In this document: in pieces, positions 26,573 through 41,949 of the stretch
Numbering within the stretch: position 1 is the first letter of the stretch
Layout of the letters: every line of letters starts with the position of its first letter
From: Oscillospiraceae bacterium
Lineage (GTDB): Bacteria > Bacillota > Clostridia > Oscillospirales > JAGBHD01
Direction of reading: 5' to 3'
Length of the DNA stretch: 61,650 nt
NCBI GenBank assembly: GCA_018110785.1
Contig: JAGBHD010000054.1
Location: 1 to 61,650, forward strand
Made by a program: the position numbers and the translations under genes
Notes under the pieces: model-generated
What the model saw: only the letters and a program-made list of their open reading frames with translations
Database searches by the model: none
Told to the model about the DNA's origin: nothing

Positions 26573-27381
26573 TAAGAGAAAATCTACATACTCATACTTT
26601 ATATTGCGACGGGAAAAATACAGCCGAAGAGATGATTTTGTCGGCAATAGAAAAATCCTTTACCGATATCGGCTTTTCGGGACATTCATTTACAGAGTTT
26701 GATACGAGCTACTGTATGACCGAAACACCAGAATACCGCGCTGAGATTTTATCCCTTAAAGAAAAATACAAGGGAAAAATAAATGTATGGTTAGGGCTTG
26801 AAAAGGATTATTTTTCAAATGAGGATAGAGGGGCTTATGATTATATCATAGGTTCGGTTCATTATGTTTTGAAAAACGGGCAATATATTCCTGTTGACGA
26901 ATCGGCTGAGACTATAAAAAATGCTGTGGAAAATGAGTATGGCGGAGATTATTCTCTTTTTATAAAGGATTATTATGAAGAGGTTTCCCTTATTGTTAAA
27001 AAGACCGATTGCGATATTATCGGGCATTTTGATTTAATATCGAAATATTTTGATGATTTAGGAATAGAAGAAACAGAAAGCTATTTAGAGATAGCTTTTA
27101 ATGCATTAGAAAAGCTTATTCCCGAGGGCAAACCCTTTGAGATAAATACGGGAGCTATTGCCCGCGGTACTAAAAAGCTTCCTTACCCCTCATTTAAAAT
27201 ACTGAAAAAAATAAATGAGCTTGAAGGCAAGATAATTTTCTCGAGCGACTGCCATAACAAGGAATATCTTGACTGCTATTTTGAAGAAAGCTTAGAAATA
27301 GCAAAAAAAGCGGGTTTTGCGGCAAGGTCGGTAATAACCGATAAAGGGTTTATAGAAATTGGTTTAGAGGAAGAATTATGA
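26569..27381 (+). CDS. hisK: PHP-family histidinol-phosphatase
   Basis: 270 residues, a PHP metal-dependent phosphoesterase. Metal-site motifs are [30 protein letters not shown] and SSDCHNKEY. It fits the histidinol phosphate phosphatase that is otherwise missing from this operon. PHP proteins also have other substrates, but the place in the operon supports this role. It overlaps hisIE by 4 bases. Confidence 0.88.
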
Positions 27382-28160
27382 GAATAATTGATTTTCATAC
27401 GCATGTTTATCCTGAGAAGATAGCTCAGAAGGCTACGGATAATGTTTGCCATTTTTACGATATAAAGGGCGGTATTTTAGGAACAGCCGATATGCTTATA
27501 AAAGAGGGACAAAAAGTAGGGGTTGATAAATACGTTATCCTACCTGTTGCCCTAAAGCCTGAAAATGTTCGCCATTTAAACGAGGCAACCCTTTTTGAAA
27601 CCAAAAAGCATAAAGAATTTATCGGCTTTGGTACGGTACATGCGGCTCAGAATAACATAATGGAAGAAATAGAATATATTGAAAGTGCAGAGCTTCGCGG
27701 AATAAAAATGCACCCCGATTTTCAGCATTTTCCGATAGATGATAACAGGCTTTTTGAAATGTATGATTATTTACAAGATAAAATGCCTGTAATACTGCAT
27801 ACGGGAGATCCGCGATATACCTATTCGCATCCCGAAAAATTAAAAAAGGTTCTTGATAATTTTCCTCACCTTACCGTTATAGCGGCTCATATGGGCGGTT
27901 GGATGGTTTTTTCTGAGGCTTTAGAGATTTTGGGAAAAACAAACTGCTATGTGGATATTTCGAGTTCAAGAATGTTTATGGAGGGCGAAGCCATTTATAA
28001 ATATATAAACGGCTACGGCGCCGACAGAATTCTTTTTGGAAGCGATTTTCCGATTTGGAGCCCTGCAGACGAGTTTAACGCTTTGATGAAGCTTAATATA
28101 TCAGATGAGGCATTGGAGAAAATTGCACATAAAAACGCAGAGCGGATTTTAAAAATTTGA
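27378..28160 (+). CDS. Amidohydrolase-family TIM-barrel protein, unknown substrate
   Basis: 260 residues. The metal-dependent hydrolase pattern is clear: DFHTHVYP, GIKMHPDFQ, ILHTGDPRY, AAHMGG and LFGSDFPIW. It resembles the amidohydrolase-2 group (aminocarboxymuconate decarboxylase or 2-pyrone dicarboxylate hydrolase relatives). It overlaps the histidinol-phosphatase gene by 4 bases, so it is the last gene of the his operon, but no standard histidine step is left for it. The role is unknown. Confidence 0.85.
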   Translation: MRIIDFHTHVYPEKIAQKATDNVCHFYDIKGGILGTADMLIKEGQKVGVDKYVILPVALKPENVRHLNEATLFETKKHKEFIGFGTVHAAQNNIMEEIEYIESAELRGIKMHPDFQHFPIDDNRLFEMYDYLQDKMPVILHTGDPRYTYSHPEKLKKVLDNFPHLTVIAAHMGGWMVFSEALEILGKTNCYVDISSSRMFMEGEAIYKYINGYGADRILFGSDFPIWSPADEFNALMKLNISDEALEKIAHKNAERILKI

Positions 28161-28222: not shown

Positions 28223-28511
28223 TATATTAAATTTAAATATTAAATGCTATGAAGATATTAAGCGTAAGCGCAAATCGTATTTTCAGAGAGCCGTCGGTAG
28301 GTGCGAGGCGGCAGACGAGCTTTCAGCTGTCTCGTATCGGAGCAGGATTTCTGAAATCAGAGTAAGAGATCTCGGTTGGCCCCGTAATAGGCCAAGGGTT
28401 TGTTGGAACCTTAGAGTGGTTTTCTTGATAAAGAAAACAATGTCGGGTGGTACCGTGGTCAATAATTTGTTTGATCATCCCGCAGAGATTATTTCTCTGC
28501 GGGATTTTTTT
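28223..28511 (+). promoter_or_regulatory. T-box riboswitch, specifier read as CUC (Leu)
   Basis: The T-box sequence GGGTGGTACCGTGG lies at 28445-28458, followed by a terminator (CCCGCAGAGA 28479-28488, TCTCTGCGGG 28494-28503, T run). Stem I has the AGAGAG segment at about 28286 and a kink-turn base: TGCT-AT-GA at 28245-28252 opposite GA-GCA at 28340-28344. The helix GATA (28254-28257) / TATC (28335-28338) places the specifier just before it, at 28331-28333 = CUC followed by G. The hand alignment uses the geometry of B. subtilis glyQS. The presence of a T-box is certain; the specifier reading is likely. Confidence 0.9.
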
Positions 28512-28532: not shown

Positions 28533-29903
28533 ATGAAAAAGATTGCAGTTTCCGATATGACTCTCAGAGTATTGGCGGAAGAAAACAAAAGGTTAACCTT
28601 TAGAGAGAAATTAAATATAGCATCTAACCTAGATGCTTGCGGTATAACTTCAATCGAGCTACCGTCGGTTGGTAAAGAAGCTGAAAACGAAGTAATTTAC
28701 CGAACTATAGCTACCTCTGTTAAAAGTGCGGAAGTTTGCATAGACGGCGGAGATACAATAGAAAGCGTTGAAGCGGCATACAACTGCATAAAAGATGCAG
28801 CCTCCCCTTGCATTCAGATAGTTATGCCTACATCTACAGTTCAGATGGAATATATTTATCATCTCAAATCAGCCGCTATGATTTCTAAAATAGCAGAGCT
28901 TGTATCTTTCGCGGCGAAAAAGGGAGCAAAGGTTGAATTTGTAGCAAGAGATGCTTCCAGAGCCGAAGAGGGATTTATCGAGGAATGCGCTAAAACTGTT
29001 TTTGAAAGCGGCGCCTCGGCGATTACTATTTGCGATGATGCGGGAATTTATTTCCCTGAGGATTACAGCGAGATAATTGCAAAGGTTAAAGGAAATACAG
29101 ATATAAAGGTTTATGCAGCTCCCTCGAACAGCTTAAGCCTCGCAGCGGCTTCGGCTATAGCCGCTATAAAGGCAGGAGCAGATGGAATTAAAACGGCTAT
29201 AAATGATAATTATTTAGGCGCAGATATTCTTTCTGATATATTCAGAAGCAAAGGCGCAGATATGAAGATAACAAGCTCTTTAGACAGCGCTGTTATAAAA
29301 ACTATGGTAGCTTCTCTTAAAGGCAGCGCAGCAATAGAGGTTAAAGAAGAGAAAGCGGCTTCCGTAGAGGTTATTGATGGTAGTTCAACAATAGCTGATA
29401 TTGCCGCCGCCGCAAAAAAACTCGGATACGAGCTTTCCGATGAGGATATCGGCAAGGTTTATGAGGAAGCAAAAAGGGTTATCCAGAAAAAGGGAAAGAT
29501 TGGAGCTAGTGAGCTTGAGGCTGTTATAGCTTCTGCTTCTATGCAGGTTCCCTCTACATTCCATGTTGTTTCTTATGTTGTAAACAGCGGAAATATTATT
29601 ACCGCAACGGCGAATGTAACCTTGGAGAAAAACGGCGAGAAAATAAGCGGTGTTGCAACTGGCGACGGCCCTATAGATGCGGCTTTCCATGCAATTGAGC
29701 AGATAGTAGGACACCATTACGAGCTTGACGATTTTCAGATACAGTCTATAACAAAGGGAAGAGAAGCGGTAGGCTCCTCTCTTATCAGGCTTAGAGCCGA
29801 CGGAAAGCTTTATTCCGGAACGGGGCTTTCTACCGATATCGTAGGCGCGAGTATTCGCGCTTATGTAAATGCGCTCAATAAAATAGTATATGAGGAAAAC
29901 TAA
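28533..29903 (+). CDS. 2-isopropylmalate synthase-like protein lacking metal ligands
   Basis: 456 residues. Residues 1-265 resemble the HMGL-like TIM barrel of LeuA. Residues 335-452 match the LeuA allosteric leucine-binding domain (STFHVVSYVV, GDGPIDAAFHAIE, STDIVGASIRAYVNALNK). The catalytic part is degenerate: the metal-binding TLRDGEQ has become TLRVLAE (residues 10-16), and the HxH pair is replaced by APS (196-198). It therefore probably cannot condense acetyl-CoA as LeuA does. It may be a leucine sensor, a scaffold or an enzyme with new chemistry. It lies directly behind the leucine T-box. Confidence 0.8.
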   Translation: MKKIAVSDMTLRVLAEENKRLTFREKLNIASNLDACGITSIELPSVGKEAENEVIYRTIATSVKSAEVCIDGGDTIESVEAAYNCIKDAASPCIQIVMPTSTVQMEYIYHLKSAAMISKIAELVSFAAKKGAKVEFVARDASRAEEGFIEECAKTVFESGASAITICDDAGIYFPEDYSEIIAKVKGNTDIKVYAAPSNSLSLAAASAIAAIKAGADGIKTAINDNYLGADILSDIFRSKGADMKITSSLDSAVIKTMVASLKGSAAIEVKEEKAASVEVIDGSSTIADIAAAAKKLGYELSDEDIGKVYEEAKRVIQKKGKIGASELEAVIASASMQVPSTFHVVSYVVNSGNIITATANVTLEKNGEKISGVATGDGPIDAAFHAIEQIVGHHYELDDFQIQSITKGREAVGSSLIRLRADGKLYSGTGLSTDIVGASIRAYVNALNKIVYEEN

Positions 29904-29904
29904 T

Positions 29905-32355
29905 ATGAAACTTGCTTTTTCAACCAAATATATAAATCCTGATTCCTTTTTAGAGCTTTGTAATTTTACCTCTGAATACGGATTTTCGGGATTTGAGGTA
30001 GCAAATGCTATCGCTGATAAAAAGCGCCATGAGGATAGCATATTTCATTCTTCTGAAACCGCAGGAGCAAAAAGAAAGCTTGTAAACCGCCATATTGAGA
30101 TAAGCGCTCTTGCATTTCCCGAAGCTATAAACGATAATACCGATGCAGAAGATTTGAAAAAATATGTAGAAATGGCATCTAATGTTTCGGGAAGCGGGGT
30201 AATAGTTGAATTTGAAACGATACCCGAAAGAGAGAAACTTAAAGCGATTTTTGGCCCTGCTATAGAAACAGCCGAGAAATTCGGCGTTATGATTATGATA
30301 GAAACGGCGGGACCTCTTTCCGACACAAAAAAGGTATTAGAGGTTATAAATGTTTTTGAAACCGCTGCTTTAGGGGTTGCATGGAATATAAGAGAAACCT
30401 ATTTTAAAGCGGGAGAGTCTGCCGATAAAACTATCCAGACCTTAGGCGCTTATATCTCTTATGTTCGCTTGGGGGACAAAAAAGGAGAGAAAAACGTTCT
30501 CATCGGCGATGGAGAGCTTCCTGTTCGCGATTTTATGAATGCCCTTCGCTCTCTTAATTACGATGGCTTTATCTCGGCAGACTGGAATGACGATATTACC
30601 TCTGCAGATATTGTTCTTACCCATTTTGTAAGCTATATGGCTTCTTTAGCGGCTAAAGAAACTGCTTCTAAAGAGATTTATTATAATCACTCTAAAACGG
30701 GAACATTCCCTTGGAAGAAATATGATGTTTTAGATATAACCTTTTCTGAGGTTCTCGATACTATGGCGGAAAGATACCCCGACCAATATGCATTTAAATA
30801 TACAACTCTCGACTATACGCGCACATACGCGCAGTTCAGAGAGGATGTTGATAAGGTTGCGGCGGCGCTTATTTCTATGGGCGTTAAGGCGGGACATCAT
30901 GTAGCTATATGGGCAACAAATGTTCCTCAATGGTTTTTAACCTTCTGGGCATCTGTTAAGATTGGCGCAGTTTTGGTAACCGTTAATACGGCATATAAAA
31001 TTCATGAGGCGGAATATCTGCTTCGCCAGTCGGATACCCATACTTTAGTTATGATAGACAGCTGCAAGGATTCTAATTATAAGGAAATTATAGAAGAGCT
31101 TTGCCCTGAGCTTAAAAACACAGTTCCCGGAACACCTCTTTATTCTAAAACTCTGCCATTTTTGCGCAATGTTGTAACCGTAGGCTTTAAGATGGACGGC
31201 GCTTTGGAATGGAATGAGTTTATGGAACGAAGCTCTTTAGTTCCTATAGAAGAGGTAAGAAGAAGAGCATCTAAGGTAGTTCCCGATGATGTTTGCAATA
31301 TGCAATATACCTCAGGAACAACGGGATTCCCCAAAGGCGTTATGCTGACACACCGCAATATTATAAACAACGGCAAGATAATCGGCGACCGAATGGATAT
31401 TTCAACTGCCGACAGAATGATGATTCAGGTTCCCATGTTCCATTGCTTCGGAATGGTTCTCTCGATGACTAATATGATGACTCACGGGGGAACAATTTGT
31501 CCTATGCCTTATTTCTCGCCGAAGTCTTCGCTTGCTTGTATAAATCAAGAAAAGATTACCTGTTTTAACGGTGTACCTACGATGTTTATCGCGATGTTTA
31601 ATCATGCAAATTTCTCAAAGACCGATTTTTCTCATATAAGAACGGGGATTATGGCAGGCGCCAACTGCCCTCCCGATTTAATGCGAAGAGCGGCGGCAGA
31701 GATGAATATGACTGAAATTATCAGCGTTTACGGACAGACAGAGGCTTCCCCCGGATGCACGATGGGAGAGGTAAATGAAGACCTTGAGCATAGGGTTGAA
31801 ACGGTTGGAAGCGCCTTTCCGGGAGTTGAATGTAAGATTATTGATCCCGAAACGGGAGAGGAACTGCCCGACGGAGAAAATGGCGAATTTGTTGCTCGCG
31901 GATATAATATAATGAAAGGGTATTATAAGATGCCCGAAGCTACCGAACAGACTATTGATAAAGACGGCTGGCTTCACAGCGGAGATATATGCTGCCGCAC
32001 TCCCGACGGATATTATAAGGTAACAGGCAGACTTAAGGATATGATAATTCGCGGCGGCGAAAATTTATATCCAAGAGAAATAGAGGAATTTTATTTAACA
32101 CATGATAAGGTCCGCGATGTTCAGGTTGTAGGCGTACCCGATAGCCGATATGGCGAAGAGGCCTGCGCTTGGATAATTCTTCATAAAGGGGTTTCTTCCG
32201 ATGAAGCTGAAATGAGGGAATACGGAGAAAGCCATATGGCAAAACACAAGGTCCCGAGATACTTTATTTTTACTAAAGAATTCCCGATGAATGCGGCAGG
32301 AAAGATACTTAAATATAAAATGAGAGATGAATCTATAAAAAAATTAGGACTTTAA
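29905..32355 (+). CDS. TIM-barrel / acyl-CoA synthetase fusion
   Basis: 816 residues from ATG 29905 (GAGG upstream; the in-frame ATG at 29890 lies inside the previous gene). Residues 1-250 resemble a xylose-isomerase-like (AP endonuclease 2) barrel, but the usual DxxH and HxHxKD metal motifs are altered (WNIRE, YVRLGD). Residues 275-816 are an AMP-forming acyl-CoA synthetase: P-loop YTSGTTGFPKG at 468-478, VYGQTEASPG, HSGDICCRTPDGYYKVTGR, and the catalytic Lys in NAAGKILKYKMR. Its start is one base after the LeuA-like gene. From the leucine T-box I infer isovalerate as a likely substrate. Confidence 0.85.
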   Translation: MKLAFSTKYINPDSFLELCNFTSEYGFSGFEVANAIADKKRHEDSIFHSSETAGAKRKLVNRHIEISALAFPEAINDNTDAEDLKKYVEMASNVSGSGVIVEFETIPEREKLKAIFGPAIETAEKFGVMIMIETAGPLSDTKKVLEVINVFETAALGVAWNIRETYFKAGESADKTIQTLGAYISYVRLGDKKGEKNVLIGDGELPVRDFMNALRSLNYDGFISADWNDDITSADIVLTHFVSYMASLAAKETASKEIYYNHSKTGTFPWKKYDVLDITFSEVLDTMAERYPDQYAFKYTTLDYTRTYAQFREDVDKVAAALISMGVKAGHHVAIWATNVPQWFLTFWASVKIGAVLVTVNTAYKIHEAEYLLRQSDTHTLVMIDSCKDSNYKEIIEELCPELKNTVPGTPLYSKTLPFLRNVVTVGFKMDGALEWNEFMERSSLVPIEEVRRRASKVVPDDVCNMQYTSGTTGFPKGVMLTHRNIINNGKIIGDRMDISTADRMMIQVPMFHCFGMVLSMTNMMTHGGTICPMPYFSPKSSLACINQEKITCFNGVPTMFIAMFNHANFSKTDFSHIRTGIMAGANCPPDLMRRAAAEMNMTEIISVYGQTEASPGCTMGEVNEDLEHRVETVGSAFPGVECKIIDPETGEELPDGENGEFVARGYNIMKGYYKMPEATEQTIDKDGWLHSGDICCRTPDGYYKVTGRLKDMIIRGGENLYPREIEEFYLTHDKVRDVQVVGVPDSRYGEEACAWIILHKGVSSDEAEMREYGESHMAKHKVPRYFIFTKEFPMNAAGKILKYKMRDESIKKLGL

Positions 32356-32409: not shown

Positions 32410-32684
32410 ATCAATTTAATAAAGGCTATGACGAAGACGGACTTAACATAGAGTTTTAAAGAGAGTCGGGGGCGGTGGAAGCCCGATAAACAAGTGTTCT
32501 GTTTCCTATCACTTCTGAGCCGGAGATCCGAAAAGAATTTCTTAGTAGGCGTCTCTCGTGATTGCTGCGTTAATGCATACGGCTTGTTAGAGCCTGAGGG
32601 GCATCTTAAAGATGCAATTTGAGTGGTACCGCGGGTATTGATTTTCAAAACTCGTCTCAAGTTTTTTGAGACGGGTTTTTATTA
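32410..32684 (+). promoter_or_regulatory. T-box riboswitch, specifier read as AUC (Ile)
   Basis: The T-box sequence GAGTGGTACCGCGGG is at 32621-32635. The terminator stem is CTCGTCTCAA (32651-32660) / TTGAGACGGG (32666-32675) with a T run. AAGAGAG is at about 32459. The 3' strand of stem I reads AUC-A-CUUCU-GA-GCC (32508-32523), where CUUCU pairs imperfectly with 5' AGACGG, GA closes the kink-turn and GCC pairs with 5' GGC at 32424. This puts the specifier at 32508-32510 = AUC. It has the same register as the valine T-box at 35 kb. Confidence 0.9.
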
Positions 32685-32707: not shown

Positions 32708-34975
32708 ATGGAACTTAATACAGCCATGGAAAGACTTACGGAGATTGCTCGCCGAATACGCGAGATGCGAGAAATTTTAGGCTACAGCATTTCCGATATG
32801 GCTTTGAAAACCGAGGTCAGCGAAGAGCAGTATCTTGCGTTTGAAAGCGGTACGGCTGATATACCGTTCTCATTTATTCATAAATGCGCTTTGGTGTTTA
32901 ATGTTGAGCTTACCGAGCTTTTAGAAGGCAACAGCGCAAATCTTTCGAGCTATACAGTAACGAGAAAGGGAGAAGGACAGGAAACCGCTAAAGAAGACGG
33001 TATTGATATTAAAAACCTTGCTCCTAAATTTAAAGATAAGATAGCAGAGCCTTATTGGGTAAGATACGAATATTCTGCTTCTCAGCAAAATAAGCCTATT
33101 CATTTAACAAAGCACAGCGGACAGGAGTTTGACCTTGTTCTAAAGGGTACTTTAAAGGTTCAGATAGGCGAACATACAGAGGTTTTGCATGAGGGCGACA
33201 GCATTTATTACGACAGCTCAACACCTCACGGAATGATAGCTGTTAACGGAGAGGATTGCGTATTCTGCGCAGTTGTTCTCCCCGGAGAGGAAACAAAAGA
33301 AGAGGTTGTAAGACAGAGCATTGCTTCGGCAAAAACCTCCGAAGAGCTTATCTGCGAGGAGTTTGTTAAACCTTTGGAAGATGAAAACGGGGTTTTAAAG
33401 AAGATTGACTTTGTTAATACCGAGAGGTTCAACTTCGGATTTGATATCGTTGATAAAATCGCAGATAAATATCCCGAAAAATTAGCAATGCTTTATGTTG
33501 ATAAAAACCATAACGAGAAAAGATTTACCTTTAAGGATATAAAGAGAGCCTCTAACCAATGCGCTAACTATTTCGCTTCGCTTGGAATCGGAAAAGGCGA
33601 TAAGGTTATGCTCGTTTTGAAAAGACATTATCAGTTCTGGTTTTCTATGGTTGCTCTTCATAAGCTCGGCGCTGTTGCGATTCCTGCAACAAACCAGCTC
33701 AAAGAGCACGATTTTGAATATCGCTATAATGCGGCAGGGGTTAAGGCTATTATCTGCACATCTGATGGAGATACTGCCGAAATCGCTGAAAATGCGGCAA
33801 AGAAATGCCCTGAAGTTAAAACCAAAATTATCGTAGGAAATCCCCGCGAGGGCTGGTGCGACTTTAACAGCGAATACACCCGCTTTTCGGGAAAATTCGA
33901 AAGAAGCGAGGACACACCTGCAGGTGATGAAACTGCTTTAATGTTCTTCACATCGGGAACAACAGGAAACCCAAAAATGGCGGCTCATAAACATACCTAC
34001 GGTCTTGGACATTTTGTAACGGCTAAATACTGGCATTGTTGCGAAAGAGATGGCCTCCATTTTACAATTTCTGACACCGGCTGGGGAAAATCCCTTTGGG
34101 GCAAGCTTTACGGACAATGGCTCTGCGAGGGCGCGGTATTTGTTTACGACTTTGACAGATTTGATGCGGCAGATATTTTACCTATGTTTGCAAAATACAA
34201 GATAACAACCTTCTGCGCTCCGCCCACGATGCTTCGTATGTTTATAAAAGATGACCTTTCTAAATACGATTTGTCATCTATCCATCATATGACAACGGCA
34301 GGAGAGGCATTAAACCCTGAGGTTTATAAGCAATTCAAAGAGGCAACAGGTCTCCAGATTATGGAAGGCTTCGGTCAGACAGAAACAACCCTTACCATCT
34401 GCAACCTAAGAGGAACAACTCCGAAAATAGGCTCTATGGGCAAGGCTTCGCCGCAATACGATGTTGATATCGTAGATGCTGAAGGTAAATCCGTACCTAA
34501 CGGAGAAACCGGAGAAATCGTTATTCATACGGATAAAACCGTTCCATGCGGACTTTTCAATGAATATTATCTTGACGAAGAGAAAACGAATGAAGCTTGG
34601 TACGACGGAATGTATCATACAGGCGATACTGCTTGGAGAGATGAAGACGGTTATTTTTGGTATGTTAGCCGCATAGACGATGTTATCAAATCTTCGGGTT
34701 ACCGCATAGGACCTTTTGAAATCGAAAGCGTTATTATGGAGCTTCCTTATGTTTTAGAATGCGGTGTTTCAGCTGCTCCCGACGAGGTTCGCGGTCAGGT
34801 TGTTAAAGCTAGTGTTGTGCTTACCAAAGGAACTGTTCCCTCCGATGAACTCAAAAAGGAAATTCAGGAATATGTTAAGAGCCATACAGCTCCTTACAAG
34901 TATCCCAGAATCGTTGAATTCAGAGAGGAACTGCCGAAAACGATAAGCGGAAAAATCCAGCGCAATAAACTTTAA
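32708..34975 (+). CDS. XRE-HTH / cupin / acyl-CoA synthetase fusion (isoleucine T-box unit)
   Basis: 755 residues. Residues 10-75 are an XRE-type helix-turn-helix, 130-190 a cupin barrel (HSGQE, SSTPHGMIAV), and 240-755 an AMP-forming acyl-CoA synthetase with P-loop TSGTTGNPK at 415-423, GEALNPEV, EGFGQTETT, YHTGDTAWRDEDGYFWY and Lys749 in SGKIQ. XRE-cupin proteins normally are stand-alone repressors; fusion to a synthetase suggests an enzyme that may also bind DNA. The isoleucine T-box upstream points to 2-methylbutyrate activation (inference). It is close to the next paralogue throughout. Confidence 0.88.
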   Translation: MELNTAMERLTEIARRIREMREILGYSISDMALKTEVSEEQYLAFESGTADIPFSFIHKCALVFNVELTELLEGNSANLSSYTVTRKGEGQETAKEDGIDIKNLAPKFKDKIAEPYWVRYEYSASQQNKPIHLTKHSGQEFDLVLKGTLKVQIGEHTEVLHEGDSIYYDSSTPHGMIAVNGEDCVFCAVVLPGEETKEEVVRQSIASAKTSEELICEEFVKPLEDENGVLKKIDFVNTERFNFGFDIVDKIADKYPEKLAMLYVDKNHNEKRFTFKDIKRASNQCANYFASLGIGKGDKVMLVLKRHYQFWFSMVALHKLGAVAIPATNQLKEHDFEYRYNAAGVKAIICTSDGDTAEIAENAAKKCPEVKTKIIVGNPREGWCDFNSEYTRFSGKFERSEDTPAGDETALMFFTSGTTGNPKMAAHKHTYGLGHFVTAKYWHCCERDGLHFTISDTGWGKSLWGKLYGQWLCEGAVFVYDFDRFDAADILPMFAKYKITTFCAPPTMLRMFIKDDLSKYDLSSIHHMTTAGEALNPEVYKQFKEATGLQIMEGFGQTETTLTICNLRGTTPKIGSMGKASPQYDVDIVDAEGKSVPNGETGEIVIHTDKTVPCGLFNEYYLDEEKTNEAWYDGMYHTGDTAWRDEDGYFWYVSRIDDVIKSSGYRIGPFEIESVIMELPYVLECGVSAAPDEVRGQVVKASVVLTKGTVPSDELKKEIQEYVKSHTAPYKYPRIVEFREELPKTISGKIQRNKL

Positions 34976-35018: not shown

Positions 35019-35300
35019 ATATTGTAAAGGCTTCGACGAAGAGGGCAAAAGAATGTTCCGGTTAAGAGAGGCGGCGGTTGGTGAAAGCTGCTCGAAGAAA
35101 TCTTTTGTTTGTAGCTTCTGAGCCGGAAGGAAGAAAGGGCAAAAAAGCCTTAGTAGAACCTTCCCGTGATTGCTGCGTAAATGCATAAGGCTTGATAGAG
35201 CCTGAGGGGCATCTTAAAGATGCAATTTGAGTGGTACCGCGGGATATAATTGATTTTATAGCTCGTCTCAAAGGAAACATATCTTTTGAGGCGGGCTGTT
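35019..35300 (+). promoter_or_regulatory. T-box riboswitch, specifier read as GUA (Val)
   Basis: The T-box sequence GAGTGGTACCGCGGG is at 35229-35243. The terminator stem is 35261-35273 / 35283-35296 with only a weak T-rich tail. AAGAGAG is at about 35065. The stem I 3' strand reads GUA-G-CUUCU-GA-GCC (35111-35124); CUUCU pairs with 5' AGAGG (35040-35044) and GCC with GGC (35029-35031). The specifier is therefore 35111-35113 = GUA. It governs the synthetase gene and, by read-through, probably ilvE and the oxidoreductase. Confidence 0.9.
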
Positions 35301-35338: not shown

Positions 35339-37636
35339 ATGAATACTGCTACCGGTCTTGAATTTAAAATTAAAGAGATGGCGCAGCGAATTCGTACGCT
35401 TAGAGAAATAGTTGGAATTTCGCCTGATGAGATGGCGGCAAAAACAGGCATCAGCTCAGCAGAATATATTGCTTGCGAAGCGGGAGAGAAAGATTTAAAC
35501 TTTGCTTTTCTTTATCGCTGCGCGTTAGCTTTGAATGTTGATGTTACCGATATTATAGAGGGCGCAAGCCCCCGTCTTGCAGGATATACAGTTACAAGAA
35601 ACGGAGCCGGTCAGGAAATTCAAAAGGCGCACGGCATGACCTATTATAACCTTGCCGCTTCCTTTAAAAATCGTATCGCGGAGCCTTTGTATGTTATATC
35701 CCAATATGACGAAAAAGCGCAGAACGCCGATATTGAGCTTACGAGCCACGAAGGTCAGGAATGCGATGTTGTAGTTAAAGGAGCTTTAAAGGTTCAGGTA
35801 GGCGACCATATTGAAATTCTCCATGAGGGCGATAGCATTTATTACGATAGCTCAACCCCTCACGGAATGATAGCTGTTGAGGGCGAAGACTGTATTTTCT
35901 ATGCATTTGTTTTAAACCCCGCAAGCGAGCCTATTTCAAAGATTGCTCACGGCGGCGTTAGAGATTTTGTAGCGGCGCCTAACAAAAAGAAAAAAGAAGA
36001 AAAAAAGCGCATATGGGAAGACATTATTATTCCGACAGAAGATGATAACGGCGTTTTAAAGGCTATAAGCTTTAAAAATGAGGATAATTTCAACTTTGCT
36101 TTTGATGTTATTGACCGTTTAGGCAGAGAACAGCCCGAGAAAACAGCCATGATTCATATTTCAAGGGATAAAACAGAACGCCGTTTTACCTTTTCGGAGC
36201 TAAAAAGAGCATCGTCGCAAACTGCGAACTATTTTAAATCATTGGGCATCAAAAAGGGCGATAAAGTAATGCTTATTCTAAAGCGTCATTATCAGTTCTG
36301 GTTTTCAATGATAGCGCTTCATAAAATAGGTGCTATTGCAATTCCTGCGACAAATCAGCTTAAAGAGCACGATCTTACATACAGATTTAACAAAGCTAAT
36401 GTTAAAATGATAATCTGCACCTCTGATGACGGTGTTGCCGAAGAGGTTGAAAAGGCAGAAAAACATTCTCCCGAGCTTCAAACCAAAATCATAGTAGGCT
36501 CCCATAGAGATGGTTGGAGAAGCTTTGACGAGGAATATGGCTTATATACAGGCAAATTCGAGCGCGATGAAGAGTCCCCCTCGGGCGATGATATTATGCT
36601 TATGTATTTTACCTCGGGAACAACAGGAAATCCAAAAATCGCAATGCATAACTATAAATATCCGCTCGGTCATTTTATAACCGCGAAATATTGGCATTGT
36701 GTTAATCCCGATGGGCTTCACCTTACAATTTCCGATACAGGTTGGGCAAAGGCTGCATGGGGCAAGCTTTACGGACAATGGCTTTGCGAAGCAGGTCTTT
36801 TTGTTTACGATTTCGATAGATTTGATGCGAACGATATTATGCCAATGTTCGCTCGCTACGGAATTACGACCTTCTGCGCTCCGCCAACAATGCTTCGCAT
36901 GATGATAAAGCAGGATTTATCGAAATTTGATCTTTCCTCTATCGAGCATATGACAACGGCGGGAGAGGCATTAAACCCCGAAGTCTTCAGACAGTTTGAA
37001 AAGGCAACGGGACTGCAGATAATGGAGGGCTTCGGACAGACCGAAACGACGGTTGCTTTAGCTAACCTTGCAGGAACTAAGGCTAGGCTCGGCTCGATGG
37101 GAAAACCCGTTCCGCTTTATAATATAGAGCTTGTAGATTCAGATGATAAGCCTGTCCCTGTTGGCGAGGTAGGCGAGATTGTTATAAATATCAAAAACGG
37201 TACACCGCCCGGACTTTTCCAAGGATATTATACCGATGAAGAAAAAACCGCCGAATGCAAAAGAAACGGGTACTATCATACAGGCGATACTGCTTGGCGC
37301 GATGAAGACGGTTATTTCTGGTATGTAGGAAGGGTTGATGACGTTATTAAGTCATCAGGTTACCGCATAGGACCTTTTGAGATTGAAAATGTTATTATGG
37401 AGTTGCCCTATGTTTTAGAGTGCGGCGTTTCAGCTGAGCCTGATGAGGTAAGAGGTCAGGTAGTTAAGGCAAGTATAGTTTTAGTAAAAGGAACTGACGG
37501 CACTGACGAGCTGAAAAAGGAAATTCAGGAATATGTTAAAAACAGAACAGCTCCTTATAAATACCCCAGAGTTGTAGTTTTCAGAGATGAGCTTCCGAAA
37601 ACAACAAGCGGAAAAATTCAGAGAAATAAACTGTAA
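35339..37636 (+). CDS. XRE-HTH / cupin / acyl-CoA synthetase fusion (valine T-box unit)
   Basis: 765 residues from ATG 35339, which follows GGGAGGAAC; the same frame is open from 35231, but that part is T-box leader. HTH at 12-75, cupin at 130-192 (with LHEGDSIYYDSSTPHG), a Lys/Glu-rich linker near 215-225, and synthetase at 250-765 with P-loop TSGTTGNPK at 425-433. It shares the domain order and long identical stretches (KRHYQFWFSM, KSSGYRIGPFEIE) with the 32.7 kb gene, so this is a duplication with divergence. The valine T-box suggests isobutyrate as substrate (inference). Confidence 0.88.
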   Translation: MNTATGLEFKIKEMAQRIRTLREIVGISPDEMAAKTGISSAEYIACEAGEKDLNFAFLYRCALALNVDVTDIIEGASPRLAGYTVTRNGAGQEIQKAHGMTYYNLAASFKNRIAEPLYVISQYDEKAQNADIELTSHEGQECDVVVKGALKVQVGDHIEILHEGDSIYYDSSTPHGMIAVEGEDCIFYAFVLNPASEPISKIAHGGVRDFVAAPNKKKKEEKKRIWEDIIIPTEDDNGVLKAISFKNEDNFNFAFDVIDRLGREQPEKTAMIHISRDKTERRFTFSELKRASSQTANYFKSLGIKKGDKVMLILKRHYQFWFSMIALHKIGAIAIPATNQLKEHDLTYRFNKANVKMIICTSDDGVAEEVEKAEKHSPELQTKIIVGSHRDGWRSFDEEYGLYTGKFERDEESPSGDDIMLMYFTSGTTGNPKIAMHNYKYPLGHFITAKYWHCVNPDGLHLTISDTGWAKAAWGKLYGQWLCEAGLFVYDFDRFDANDIMPMFARYGITTFCAPPTMLRMMIKQDLSKFDLSSIEHMTTAGEALNPEVFRQFEKATGLQIMEGFGQTETTVALANLAGTKARLGSMGKPVPLYNIELVDSDDKPVPVGEVGEIVINIKNGTPPGLFQGYYTDEEKTAECKRNGYYHTGDTAWRDEDGYFWYVGRVDDVIKSSGYRIGPFEIENVIMELPYVLECGVSAEPDEVRGQVVKASIVLVKGTDGTDELKKEIQEYVKNRTAPYKYPRVVVFRDELPKTTSGKIQRNKL

Positions 37637-37648
37637 AGGAGAATATAT

Positions 37649-38728
37649 ATGAAATACGAAATTTCTATAACCAAAACAGCGGCTCCAAAGCCTCACCCGA
37701 CCGATGAATCAAAGCTCGGTTTCGGAAGAATTTTTACAGATCACATGTTTTTAATGGATTATGCGGCTGATAAAGGCTGGTATAACGGAAGAATAGTTCC
37801 TTTCGGTCCCATCCCCGTTCACCCTGCTTCTACCGTTTTGCATTACGGCGCAGAGATATTTGAAGGACTTAAGGCCTATAGAACGGTTAATAACGAGATT
37901 AAATTATTCCGTCCGTTAGAAAACATAAAGCGCCTTAACAACAGCGCAGAGCGTTTATGCTTGCCTGAACTTGATGAAGAGGGCTGTCTTGATATTTTAA
38001 AGACATTGGTTGAACTAGAAAAGGATTGGGTTCCAAAGAGCGAGGGGACATCTCTTTATCTTCGTCCGTTCCTTTTCGGAAATGACCCGCATCTTGGAGT
38101 TCACGCAGTTAAAGAGGCTGTTTTTGCAGTTATCTGCTCACCCGTTGGCGCTTATTATGCAGAGGGCATAAACCCCGTTAAGATTGCTATTGAATCCGAA
38201 GATGTTCGCGCTGTTCGCGGCGGAACAGGATACGCTAAATGCGGCGGTAACTATGCGGCAAGTCTTAGAGCGGGAGAAAGAGCCGAAAGAAAGGGATATA
38301 CTCAGGTTCTTTGGCTTGACGGCGTTGAGAGAAAATATATTGAAGAAGTCGGCGCGATGAACGTTATGTTCAAAATCGACGGCAAAATTATAACCCCCGC
38401 GCTTACAGGCTCGGTACTCCCCGGTATAACAAGAAAATCCAGTATAGAGATGCTTCGCGATTGGGGATATGAGGTAGAGGAAAGACTTTTATCGGTTGAT
38501 GAGCTGTTTGCGGCGGCAGAAGACGGCAGCTTAGAAGAGGCTTGGGGAACAGGAACAGCGGCAGTTGTTTCTCCTATAGGTCATCTTTTCTATAACGGCA
38601 AGGAATATACTGTTTCCAATAATGAAATAGGTGAACTTACACAGAAGCTTTATGATAATCTTACAGGTATTCAGTGGGGCAAGATAGAAGATAAATACGG
38701 CTGGTGCGAAAAGGTTTGCAATGGGTAA
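37649..38728 (+). CDS. ilvE: Branched-chain amino acid aminotransferase
   Basis: 359 residues, PLP fold type IV. It exchanges the amino group between glutamate and the 2-oxo forms of Val, Leu and Ile. Marks: HYGAEIFEGLKAYR, YLRPFLFGNDPHLGV, the PLP lysine in AKCGGNYAASL, and KYIEEVGAMNVMF. It starts 12 nt after the valine-unit synthetase and is probably on the same T-box-controlled transcript. It is the final step of the proposed acid-to-amino-acid route. Confidence 0.95.
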   Translation: MKYEISITKTAAPKPHPTDESKLGFGRIFTDHMFLMDYAADKGWYNGRIVPFGPIPVHPASTVLHYGAEIFEGLKAYRTVNNEIKLFRPLENIKRLNNSAERLCLPELDEEGCLDILKTLVELEKDWVPKSEGTSLYLRPFLFGNDPHLGVHAVKEAVFAVICSPVGAYYAEGINPVKIAIESEDVRAVRGGTGYAKCGGNYAASLRAGERAERKGYTQVLWLDGVERKYIEEVGAMNVMFKIDGKIITPALTGSVLPGITRKSSIEMLRDWGYEVEERLLSVDELFAAAEDGSLEEAWGTGTAAVVSPIGHLFYNGKEYTVSNNEIGELTQKLYDNLTGIQWGKIEDKYGWCEKVCNG

Positions 38729-39383
38729 GAGAATTTACATTATTGCAGGGCATTACGGAAGCGGAAAAACAAATATAGCGGTAAACTTGGCGCTAAAGCT
38801 TAGAAAAGAGGGAAAAGAGGATAAAATTGCCGACCTTGATATAGTTAACCCCTATTTCAGAACTAAGGACAGCGCGGATGTTTTGGAAAAAGCGGGAATA
38901 GAGCTGATTTCTCCCCATTTTGCCAATACAAATGTTGATCTACCCGCTCTTCCGCCCGAAACCTATAGCATATTCCAGAATAAGAATTTTTCTGCAGTAA
39001 TAGATGTTGGCGGAGATGACAGAGGCGCCTATGCGCTAGGCAGATATGCTCCCTACATTTTGGAAGAAAATAATTTCGAAATGTGCTTCGTTGCAAATTT
39101 CTATAGACCTTTAACAAAAACGGCTGAAGAAGCGATAGAGGTAATGAGAGAAATTGAAGCCGCCTGCGGCATAAAATTTACTGCGATTATAAACAATTCC
39201 AATCTTGGTTCTGAGACTGCAAAAGAGGATATCTTAGCCTCTAACATTCAGGCTGAGCGGTTGAGAGAAATATCCTCTCTTCCGATACTTTTTAATTCGG
39301 TAAGAGCCGATATATCAGAGGAAATAGAAGACAGCTTTCCTCTTAATTTGCAGGAAAAATATTACGATATAAAGGAGAATTAG
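38721..39383 (+). CDS. P-loop ATPase of the ParA/MinD/CobQ type
   Basis: 220 residues. A deviant Walker A motif GHYGSGKTNIAVNLAL lies at residues 9-24. VDVGGDD-type residues (AVIDVGGDDRGAY) occur near 92-104. No cysteine cluster is seen, so a simple Fe-S carrier of the Mrp type is unlikely. It overlaps ilvE by 8 bases and is 1 base from the ferredoxin gene. The position inside the ilvE-oxidoreductase operon suggests a maturation or activation role for the oxidoreductase (inference). Confidence 0.82.
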   Translation: MGKRIYIIAGHYGSGKTNIAVNLALKLRKEGKEDKIADLDIVNPYFRTKDSADVLEKAGIELISPHFANTNVDLPALPPETYSIFQNKNFSAVIDVGGDDRGAYALGRYAPYILEENNFEMCFVANFYRPLTKTAEEAIEVMREIEAACGIKFTAIINNSNLGSETAKEDILASNIQAERLREISSLPILFNSVRADISEEIEDSFPLNLQEKYYDIKEN

Positions 39384-39384
39384 T

Positions 39385-39591
39385 ATGGCAAAGGTTAGTT
39401 TTAAAACTGATATTTGCAAGGGCTGCGGACTTTGTGTTGACGCGTGTCCGAAAAAAATTATCGCTTTAGCGAAAGATAAATTAAATGCGAAAGGACATTC
39501 TCCCGCGATTATTACCGATCAGGATAAATGCATCGGTTGCGCTTTTTGCGCAACAATGTGTCCCGACTGTGTAATAACCGTTGAGAAATGA
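39385..39591 (+). CDS. vorD: 2-oxoacid:ferredoxin oxidoreductase delta subunit (ferredoxin-like)
   Basis: 68 residues with two 4Fe-4S motifs: [14 protein letters not shown] and [14 protein letters not shown]. It carries electrons between the catalytic TPP/4Fe-4S subunits and ferredoxin. It is the first of four subunit genes in the order delta-alpha-beta-gamma. The vor/kor naming is uncertain from sequence; the context favours branched-chain oxoacids. Confidence 0.9.
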
Positions 39592-39601
39592 GGTGTTGAA
39601 A

Positions 39602-40662
39602 ATGGCAGAAAAGGTTTTAATGAAAGGTAACGAAGCTATTGCGGAAGCGGCTATTAAAGCGGGCTGTCGCCATTATTTCGGTTATCCTATAACCCCTCAG
39701 ACAGAAATTGCGGCTTATATGGCAAAGCGTATGCCTAAAATCGGCGGTGTATTTCTACAGGCAGAAAGCGAGGTTTCTGCAATTAATATGGTTTACGGAG
39801 TTGCGGGAGCAGTTTCAGAGTTATGACCTCTTCTTCTTCCCCCGGTATTTCCTTAAAGCAAGAGGGTATTTCTTATATCGCAGGCGCAGATTTGCCCGCG
39901 CTTATCGTTAATGTTCAGCGTGGAGGCCCCGGCCTTGGCGGCATTCAGCCCTCTCAGTCGGACTATTTTCAGGCAACAAAGGGCGGCGGACACGGAGATT
40001 ACCATCTTATCGTTTTAGCCCCTGCTTCTGTTCAGGAAATGGCAGACCTTACAATTAAGGCTTTCGATTTATCCGAGAAATACAGAGTTCCTACAATGCT
40101 TTTAGCAGACGGAACTATGGGACAGATGATGGAGCCTGTTGAACTTCCTGAGATAGCTCCCAAAGAAAGCGAAAAGCCTTGGGCTGTAAGAGGAACAAAA
40201 ATGGAGAGAGAACATAATATTATAAACTCTCTTTATTTAAAACCCGAAATTTTAGAGAAAACAAACTTCGAAAGATTCGAGAGATACAAGGCTATCGAAG
40301 AAAACGAAGCTATGTATGAAGAATATATGATGGACGATGCTGAGATTTGCGTTGTTGCATTCGGTATTGCGGCGAGAGTTTCCAAAAACGCAGTTACTGC
40401 GGCTCGCAAAAAAGGCATCAAGGTAGGACTTATAAGGCCTATAACCCTCTGGCCTTTCCCGAAAGAGGCTTTGAAGAAGGCGGCAGACAAGGTAAAAGGA
40501 TTTATCTCTGTTGAGCTTTCTATGGGCCAGATGATTGAGGATATAAAGCTTTCTACCGAATGCAAAAAGCCGGTAGAGCTTTGCAACCGCACAGGCGGTA
40601 TGATTCCTACCCCCGAAGAAGTTCTTGCTTCTATTGAAAAATTAGCAAAGGAGGCAAAATAG
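39602..40662 (+). CDS. vorB: 2-oxoacid:ferredoxin oxidoreductase alpha subunit, apparent 1-nt deletion
   Basis: As given, the frame from ATG 39602 stops at 39826 after SEL, and the rest runs from about 39823 to 40662 in another frame. One added G near 39812 gives [20 protein letters not shown] and a 353-residue protein, the usual size. The pyrimidine-binding part [11 protein letters not shown] and the conserved [11 protein letters not shown] are intact, as are [18 protein letters not shown] and the C-terminal part. A sequencing or assembly error is more likely than a real break, since all partner genes are intact. Confidence 0.9.
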
Positions 40663-40663
40663 A

Positions 40664-41416
40664 ATGGTAGTATTTGAGAAACCGAAGGCATTAACCGATG
40701 CGCCTTTGCATTATTGCCCTGGCTGCACACACGGTATTATTCACCGATTAGTAGCAGAGGCTATTGATGAGCTCGGTGTAGAGGGAAAAACTGTTGGTGT
40801 TGCTCCTGTTGGATGCGCAGTTATGGCATATGATTATTTTGCCTGCGATATGGTAGAAGCGGCTCACGGAAGAGCCCCCGCTGTTGCAACAGGTCTTAAA
40901 AGAGCTATGCCCGAAAATATAATCTTTACATATCAAGGCGATGGAGATTTAGCTTCTATCGGTATGGCAGAAACTGTTCATGCCGCAACAAGAAACGAAA
41001 ATATAACAATTATTTTCGTTAACAATGCAATCTACGGTATGACAGGCGGTCAGATGGCTCCTACATCTCTCCCCGGTCAGGTAACCCAGACCTCTCCTTA
41101 CGGAAGAGACACAGCCGTTCAGGGATTTCCTATTAAGGTAAGCGAGATGCTTTCCGCTTTAGATGGTCCCGAATATATCGAGCGCGTTGCCGTTAATAAT
41201 GTTAAAAATGTTAAGAATGCTAAAAAGGCAATCTTAAAGGCATTTAAAAATCAGGTTGAGGGAAAAGGATTTTCTTTAATTGAGGTTGTTTCCTCCTGCC
41301 CTACAAACTGGGGTATGACTCCTTCTAAAGCTTTAGAGTGGGTAGAAGAAAAAATGATTCCCTATTATCCTCTCGGCGTTTATAAAGATAAGAGCGCTGA
41401 AAAGAAGGAGGACTAA
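40664..41416 (+). CDS. vorA: 2-oxoacid:ferredoxin oxidoreductase beta subunit (TPP-binding)
   Basis: 250 residues. The TPP motif is YQGDGDLASIGM...NNAIYGMTGGQMAPT. The cysteines of the catalytic 4Fe-4S cluster include CPGCTHG and the one in APVGCAVM. With the alpha subunit it interconverts a 2-oxoacid and its CoA thioester plus CO2 and reduced ferredoxin, a reversible reaction. It starts one base after the alpha gene. Confidence 0.93.
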   Translation: MVVFEKPKALTDAPLHYCPGCTHGIIHRLVAEAIDELGVEGKTVGVAPVGCAVMAYDYFACDMVEAAHGRAPAVATGLKRAMPENIIFTYQGDGDLASIGMAETVHAATRNENITIIFVNNAIYGMTGGQMAPTSLPGQVTQTSPYGRDTAVQGFPIKVSEMLSALDGPEYIERVAVNNVKNVKNAKKAILKAFKNQVEGKGFSLIEVVSSCPTNWGMTPSKALEWVEEKMIPYYPLGVYKDKSAEKKED

Positions 41417-41418
41417 TC

Positions 41419-41949
41419 ATGACAACACAGATTTTAATCGCAGGCTTCGGCGGACAGGGCGTTTTATTCGCAGGAAAGTTTATAGCGTATAAAGGTCTTA
41501 TCGAGAATAAGGAGGTTAGCTGGCTCCCGTCATACGGACCTGAAATGCGCGGCGGAACGGCTAACTGCAGTATTATTATAAGCGATGAGCCTGTAGGCTC
41601 GCCTATCGTATCTAACCCTGATGTTCTTATCGCGATGAATTTACCCTCTTTGGATAAATATGAAAAGGAAGCAAAACCCGGCTCTTTGATTTTTGTTGAC
41701 AGTACTCTTATTGAGCGCAAGGTAGAAAGAGGAGATGTTAAAGCCTTCTATATCCCCGCAACAAAAATGGCTATGGATGCAGGAATTCCTACTTTAGCTA
41801 ATATGATAATTGTAGGAAAGGTTTTGAAAGAAACCGAAGGACTTTCCAAAGATAATCTTGAAGAGGCTATGAAAAAGGTTGTTTCGGCAAAGAGAATAGA
41901 GCTTTTAGATATGAACATCAAGGCTATTGAAGCAGGATATAATTATTAA
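41419..41949 (+). CDS. vorC: 2-oxoacid:ferredoxin oxidoreductase gamma subunit
   Basis: 176 residues. QILIAGFGGQGVLFAGKFIAY at the start and WLPSYGPEMRGGTANCSIIIS are typical of the gamma subunit that helps bind CoA. It completes the delta-alpha-beta-gamma set and ends the operon before a strong terminator. Confidence 0.94.
   Translation: MTTQILIAGFGGQGVLFAGKFIAYKGLIENKEVSWLPSYGPEMRGGTANCSIIISDEPVGSPIVSNPDVLIAMNLPSLDKYEKEAKPGSLIFVDSTLIERKVERGDVKAFYIPATKMAMDAGIPTLANMIIVGKVLKETEGLSKDNLEEAMKKVVSAKRIELLDMNIKAIEAGYNY

Follow-up and report, generated by a model that had tools for sequence, protein, structure and literature searches.

HisZ is the regulatory subunit of the short-form ATP phosphoribosyltransferase (PMC9734150). 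For isopropylmalate synthase (LeuA) of E. coli, G462D is listed as a feedback-resistant variant (PMC12967937). In rumen bacteria, a route by carboxylation of isovalerate was reported by Allison et al. (1962, 1966), as cited in PMC7356843, and the 3ETC enzyme (Macs, from Methanosarcina acetivorans) prefers 2-methylbutyrate (PMC10455477).

The locus described here lies on contig JAGBHD010000054.1 of a gut bacterium of the Oscillospiraceae (order Oscillospirales), and the window is the whole stretch of 61,650 nt that was analysed. It holds a gene, here called pseudo-LeuA (pLeuA), whose sequence identifies the product as a non-catalytic descendant of LeuA (Table 1). The preferred reading, to which a probability of roughly two in three is given, is that pLeuA is the leucine-sensing regulatory subunit of an isovalerate-CoA ligase in a route from isovalerate to leucine.

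Table 1. Features of the pLeuA operon in the window
Feature	Coordinates	Strand	Evidence
T-box leader, leucine specifier CTC	28240..28485	+	Rfam RF00230, 107 bits; specifier-loop alignment; relatives
Pseudo-LeuA (pLeuA), 456 aa	28533..29903	+	Pfam; homologue alignment; AlphaFold model
LeuA-type TIM barrel without metal site	28533..29342	+	Structure alignment; ligands lost
TLRDG replaced by TLRVL, without the metal Asp	28560..28574	+	Residues 10-14; alignment
HxH replaced by APS, without the two metal His	29118..29126	+	Residues 196-198; alignment
LeuA regulatory (leucine-binding) domain	29505..29900	+	PF08502, residues 325-451, E 7.7e-32; conservation
Xylose-isomerase-like barrel (about residues 1-260) fused to acyl-CoA ligase (from about 271), proposed isovalerate-CoA ligase	29905..32355	+	AP_endonuc_2, AMP-binding, AMP-binding_C; pairing
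T-box leader, isoleucine specifier ATC	32419..32662	+	RF00230, 91.9 bits, slightly below gathering threshold of 93; relatives
HTH-cupin-acyl-CoA ligase (MbcS/Macs type), proposed 2-methylbutyryl-CoA ligase	32708..34975	+	3etc_A, E 2.6e-193
T-box leader, valine specifier GTA	35024..35273	+	RF00230, 90.3 bits, slightly below gathering threshold of 93; relatives
Second HTH-cupin-acyl-CoA ligase, proposed isobutyryl-CoA ligase	35339..37636	+	Pfam; homologues (start placed by comparison with homologues; the GTG at 35231 in the ORF list falls within the T-box)
IlvE branched-chain aminotransferase	37649..38728	+	TIGR01123, 398 bits, above cut-off
NTPase-like protein, conserved in operon	38721..39383	+	No NCBIfam match
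Ferredoxin-like subunit of 2-oxoacid oxidoreductase	39385..39591	+	Two 4Fe-4S cysteine motifs in translation
VOR alpha subunit, frame shifted near 39810	39602..40662	+	NF005507, 429 bits against cut-off of 399 (39823-40659)
2-oxoacid:ferredoxin oxidoreductase beta subunit	40664..41416	+	TIGR02177 family
2-oxoacid:ferredoxin oxidoreductase gamma subunit	41419..41949	+	TIGR02175 family

By sequence and fold, pLeuA is a homologue of LeuA. Its reading frame matches HMGL-like (E 1.5e-27) and LeuA_dimer (110 bits against a cut-off of 24.9) in Pfam, and its AlphaFold model (pLDDT 87) has the LeuA fold. The model barrel superposes on the isopropylmalate synthase structures 3eeg and 3ewb with a VIA-align Z of 36 and an rmsd of 1.5-1.7 over 261-263 residues, and the top Foldseek match of the model is the leucine-bound LeuA of M. 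tuberculosis. The scores of pLeuA against the two LeuA equivalogs nevertheless lie below their cut-offs (217.7 vs 598.7 for TIGR00973; 233.4 vs 532 for NF002086). An earlier note, made from the letters of the window, had claimed that the barrel lost the metal-binding Asp of TLRDG and both His of HxH. Alignment with E. coli LeuA confirms these losses (D14 to V13, H202 to A196, H204 to S198) and extends them to N238 (Y227 in pLeuA), to the catalytic Glu and to the entire His/Tyr subdomain of about 44 residues ('HSSGIHQDGV...NYEI' in E. coli LeuA), which is deleted. The same pattern holds across the family when 101 pLeuA homologues are compared with 29 true LeuA proteins from the window's order: the first metal Asp (D13) survives in two of the 101 (2%), the two His in 0-1%, the Asn in 2% and Glu-140, the catalytic residue, in 1%; none of the 101 has the subdomain. 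That intact ligands might lie elsewhere in the barrel had been named beforehand as the finding that would count against the claim; the alignment revealed none in the pLeuA barrel. Because the defining catalytic features of LeuA were looked for and are missing, pLeuA should not be classed as a LeuA enzyme. The possibility of a pseudogene was also considered and rejected, as 95 complete ORFs show an uninterrupted, conserved frame.

A barrel without its old metal site might still have acquired another activity, and the earlier note had raised an enzyme with new chemistry as an alternative to a sensor. In such a case, pLeuA would be a metal-independent, leucine-regulated enzyme acting on an acyl-CoA or a 2-oxoacid. 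The LeuA-like fold and a set of invariant barrel residues (D8, M105-E106-Y107, K112, D140, R143 and D168) imply that a pocket may persist. Most of the invariant residues, however, are invariant in true LeuA as well (D8, D140, R143 and D168), substitution is unconstrained at the sites of the former ligands (K/V/A/E at 13, Q/K/E/S at 196), and no new conserved polar cluster that would replace these ligands was seen in the pLeuA barrel. Moreover, the catalytic subdomain is deleted, and the pathway described below has no gap that requires an enzyme at this point. New chemistry is thus disfavoured and appears very improbable.

By contrast with the barrel, the regulatory domain is retained, as had been noted before. 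With retention in 80% or more of pLeuA proteins as the threshold, 22 of 100 barrel positions that are invariant in true LeuA are conserved, vs 9 of 14 such positions in the regulatory domain (p=0.002). Glycine motifs persist in the domain, and G414 of the window protein, which aligns with G462 of E. coli LeuA, is Gly in 100 of the 101 homologues. The leucine pocket was assessed through conservation and this one mutation site. When the regulatory domain alone was searched with phmmer against the PDB, no match was obtained.

By its leader sequence, the transcript that carries pLeuA is under leucine control: the gene lies directly under a leucine T-box, as the earlier note had stated. Leaders of pLeuA in relatives carry the leucine specifiers CTC (71 cases) or CTG (4), while the leader of the first HTH-cupin ligase reads ATC 26 times and that of the second GTA or GTC 20 times. 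This tally was made with a pattern restricted to CTC/CTG, ATC and GTA/GTC, under which any other codon would fall among the 19 leaders that gave no assignment, and the few odd assignments in it are probably misreads. Overall, of the 96 pLeuA loci whose upstream sequence is long enough, 80 have a T-box motif, seven true-LeuA loci being excluded. An isoleucine specifier for the first T-box, suggested by eye from the stretch GAAATCAGAG, was rejected: this stretch falls outside the specifier loop in the Rfam alignment, and relatives carry CTC or CTG. At some loci (L009-L012, L015-L017, L028, L045 and L047), tandem T-box motifs are found upstream of pLeuA; the first reads CTC and the second, where it could be parsed (L015), ATC. 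Often just one ligase precedes IlvE and VOR at these loci.

The pairing of pLeuA with the barrel-ligase fusion is very strict. As the earlier note had observed, the pLeuA stop codon (29901-29903) ends one base ahead of the ATG of the fusion at 29905, a spacing that is typical among relatives. The comparison with homologues that it had proposed bears this out: the fusion lies downstream of pLeuA in 95 of 95 complete pLeuA ORFs from fetched loci, usually with a 1-base gap, and among 147 genomes of the window's order it is present in all 25 that have pLeuA vs 35 of the other 122. Most loci share 79-90% identity in the ligase part of the fusion. Both the pLeuA barrel and the xylose-isomerase-like barrel, on the other hand, change rapidly and in step; the distance matrices of the two barrels have a partial correlation of 0.64 given the ligase, a value reached in 0 of 1000 permutations. 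This correlated divergence is suggestive of contact between the barrels, short of proof, and the mirror-tree signal may instead reflect two fast-evolving domains on one phylogeny. No natural fusion of pLeuA with the ligase was seen. In an AlphaFold model of the 816-aa fusion the ligase part is poor (mean pLDDT 70.7) and, consequently, only the first barrel of this model was considered.

Strict pairing, near-coupled reading frames and correlated barrels would also be expected if pLeuA were a scaffold or assembly partner of the ligase, with a regulatory domain that serves to dimerise and nothing else; LeuA_dimer does double as a dimerisation domain. Nevertheless, a scaffold alone leaves unexplained why a leucine-type domain, with its glycine motifs and the feedback-resistance glycine, is kept in a leucine-controlled operon, and fusions without pLeuA exist. 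A purely structural role is therefore judged unlikely.

The fusions that lack pLeuA are informative about the order in which the system arose. A long barrel-ligase frame is present in 35 of the genomes without pLeuA; since such fusions occur in many genomes, the ligase activity does not require pLeuA. The four that were inspected (L148, L151, L152 and L155) keep the E, D, H and E metal ligands of the first barrel (WDxHH, HxKD, SLEW), while barrels of the window type have lost them (WNIRE, RxGD) and those of early-branching pLeuA loci have intermediate motifs. The pLeuA-free fusions L148, L152, L153 and L156 sit after T-boxes that apparently read CTC, and the ligase itself is thus part of leucine supply. 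Because pLeuA-free fusions combine intact ligands with a CTC T-box and early-branching loci are intermediate, these sequences suggest that pLeuA was added to a ligase already serving the leucine arm, after which the fused barrel degenerated too.

Downstream, acyl-CoA ligases, a VOR-type oxidoreductase and IlvE all lie within one operon, which, by its gene content, is an operon for the synthesis of branched-chain amino acids (BCAA) from branched fatty acids. The layout is as expected for three arms leading from isovalerate to leucine, from 2-methylbutyrate to isoleucine and from isobutyrate to valine; the assignment of isovalerate to the fusion ligase is part of this proposal. The earlier note had missed this trio of leucine, isoleucine and valine T-boxes with VOR and IlvE, which gives the sensor its meaning. 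Both HTH-cupin ligases, which are under the isoleucine and valine T-boxes, carry an N-terminal XRE-type HTH and a cupin, and could represent a self-sensing version of the arrangement seen with pLeuA. The VOR alpha gene is split in the window assembly and intact in relatives, through either an assembly error or a recent mutation. In many relatives, an Amidohydro_2 gene (27378-28160 in the window) adjoins either pLeuA or the ligase, though its position varies. Elsewhere in the window, an S10-Clostridia ribosomal leader (836-914) precedes a ribosomal protein operon.

The genomes that carry pLeuA are depleted of the canonical pathway. The genome that holds the window, at 1.40 Mb and 97.5% completeness, contains neither a second LeuA nor an IlvD or IlvC, and no LeuC scored above cut-off. 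In the 147 genomes of the order, mostly metagenome assemblies in which absences can be gaps, IlvC occurs in 3 of 25 pLeuA genomes vs 74 of 122 others (p=1e-5) and type-I LeuA in 0 of 25 vs 47 of 122 (p=3e-5), a pattern that recurs across the 25 genomes. A regulatory domain was detected in 24 pLeuA genomes; 20 of them lack a second LeuA_dimer protein, which is present in G076, G052, G016 and G074. Gene content thus indicates that the operon is a replacement for the canonical BCAA pathway, with the exception of G014, G051 and G076, where IlvC and IlvD are retained. In G014 and G051 a second LeuA_dimer protein is lacking, in keeping with a role specific to leucine in these genomes. Across a sample of the phylum pLeuA is rare, with full-length matches in 4 of 398 genomes, two of them beyond the window's order (L177 and L178, in genomes G534 and G197), which suggests horizontal transfer or an older origin of pLeuA. 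The searches returned no plasmid homologues of pLeuA and no PADLOC match to a defence system at the locus.

The direction of the pathway and the target of pLeuA may also be read differently. The reactions of VOR and IlvE are reversible, so the operon might degrade BCAA oxidatively, and pLeuA might act on transcription, transport or VOR, or might activate the ligase instead of inhibiting it. T-boxes, however, switch genes on when their cognate amino acid is scarce, which points to synthesis, and with IlvC, IlvD, LeuA and LeuC missing, the cell needs another way to make leucine unless it imports the amino acid. In addition, the ligase fusion is the closest constant neighbour of pLeuA. Another target or an oxidative role is accordingly regarded as highly improbable.

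Under the preferred reading of pLeuA as a leucine sensor, leucine scarcity would turn the transcript on through the leucine T-box. The fusion ligase would then make isovaleryl-CoA from isovalerate, the shared VOR-type oxidoreductase would convert this thioester to 4-methyl-2-oxopentanoate by reductive carboxylation, and IlvE would turn this product into leucine. Once plentiful, leucine would bind the LeuA_dimer domain of pLeuA, the signal would travel through the dead LeuA-type barrel into the fusion by way of its xylose-isomerase-like barrel, presumably within a complex of the two proteins, and the leucine-bound pLeuA would lower the activity of the ligase. As its active site is gone, its leucine domain intact and its partner always at hand, pLeuA probably tells the ligase when enough leucine has been made. 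The earlier suggestion of a leucine sensor that adjusts the partner synthetase is thus supported in part: the loss of catalysis, the retained domain, the pairing, the T-box and the missing LeuA, IlvC, IlvD and LeuC all fit it, while binding and adjustment themselves belong to the proposed mechanism. A more specific and tentative version, given slightly less than even odds, is that LeuA was co-opted as an allosteric subunit devoted to an unrelated enzyme and that two dead TIM barrels relay the leucine signal to an acyl-CoA ligase. Such a relay would place feedback at the protein level on top of the leucine T-box, in a leucine pathway without prior gene assignment.

In the open-licence literature searched, neither a LeuA pseudoenzyme nor this operon was found, and no description was found of genes for the route from isovalerate, 2-methylbutyrate and isobutyrate. 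The operon would thus offer a concrete gene set for the rumen BCAA route of the 1960s, with a T-box marking each arm, and pLeuA a clear example of how an allosteric domain can outlive its enzyme and move to a new partner. Gut and rumen Clostridia with the operon would rely on branched fatty acids from their neighbours, a dependence that bears on cross-feeding and on ruminant feeding.

Compared with known systems, pLeuA shares with LeuA (TIGR00973 / NF002086) the barrel fold, the domain order and a conserved LeuA_dimer domain, but has none of its metal ligands, catalytic Glu or His/Tyr subdomain, and scores 218-233 bits where LeuA requires 599 and 532. Likewise, the barrel of the window fusion lacks the E-D-H-E ligands of xylose-isomerase-like metal enzymes. 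Macs, a 2-methylbutyryl-CoA synthetase, is the closest solved relative of the isoleucine-controlled ligase, which differs from it by its extra N-terminal HTH and cupin. The rumen carboxylation of isovalerate (PMC7356843) follows the same carbon routes to leucine, isoleucine and valine; that route is known from labelling, while here genes would stand behind it, together with a pseudoenzyme and with T-boxes specific for each amino acid. Finally, pLeuA resembles HisZ in its family-wide loss of catalysis and in a pairing that, from the genomes, appears obligate. If the proposal holds, both would be non-catalytic relatives of enzymes that sense an amino acid at the first step of its own pathway, although HisZ arose from histidyl-tRNA synthetase and works with HisG(S), and pLeuA is unrelated to it and has an acyl-CoA ligase as its partner.
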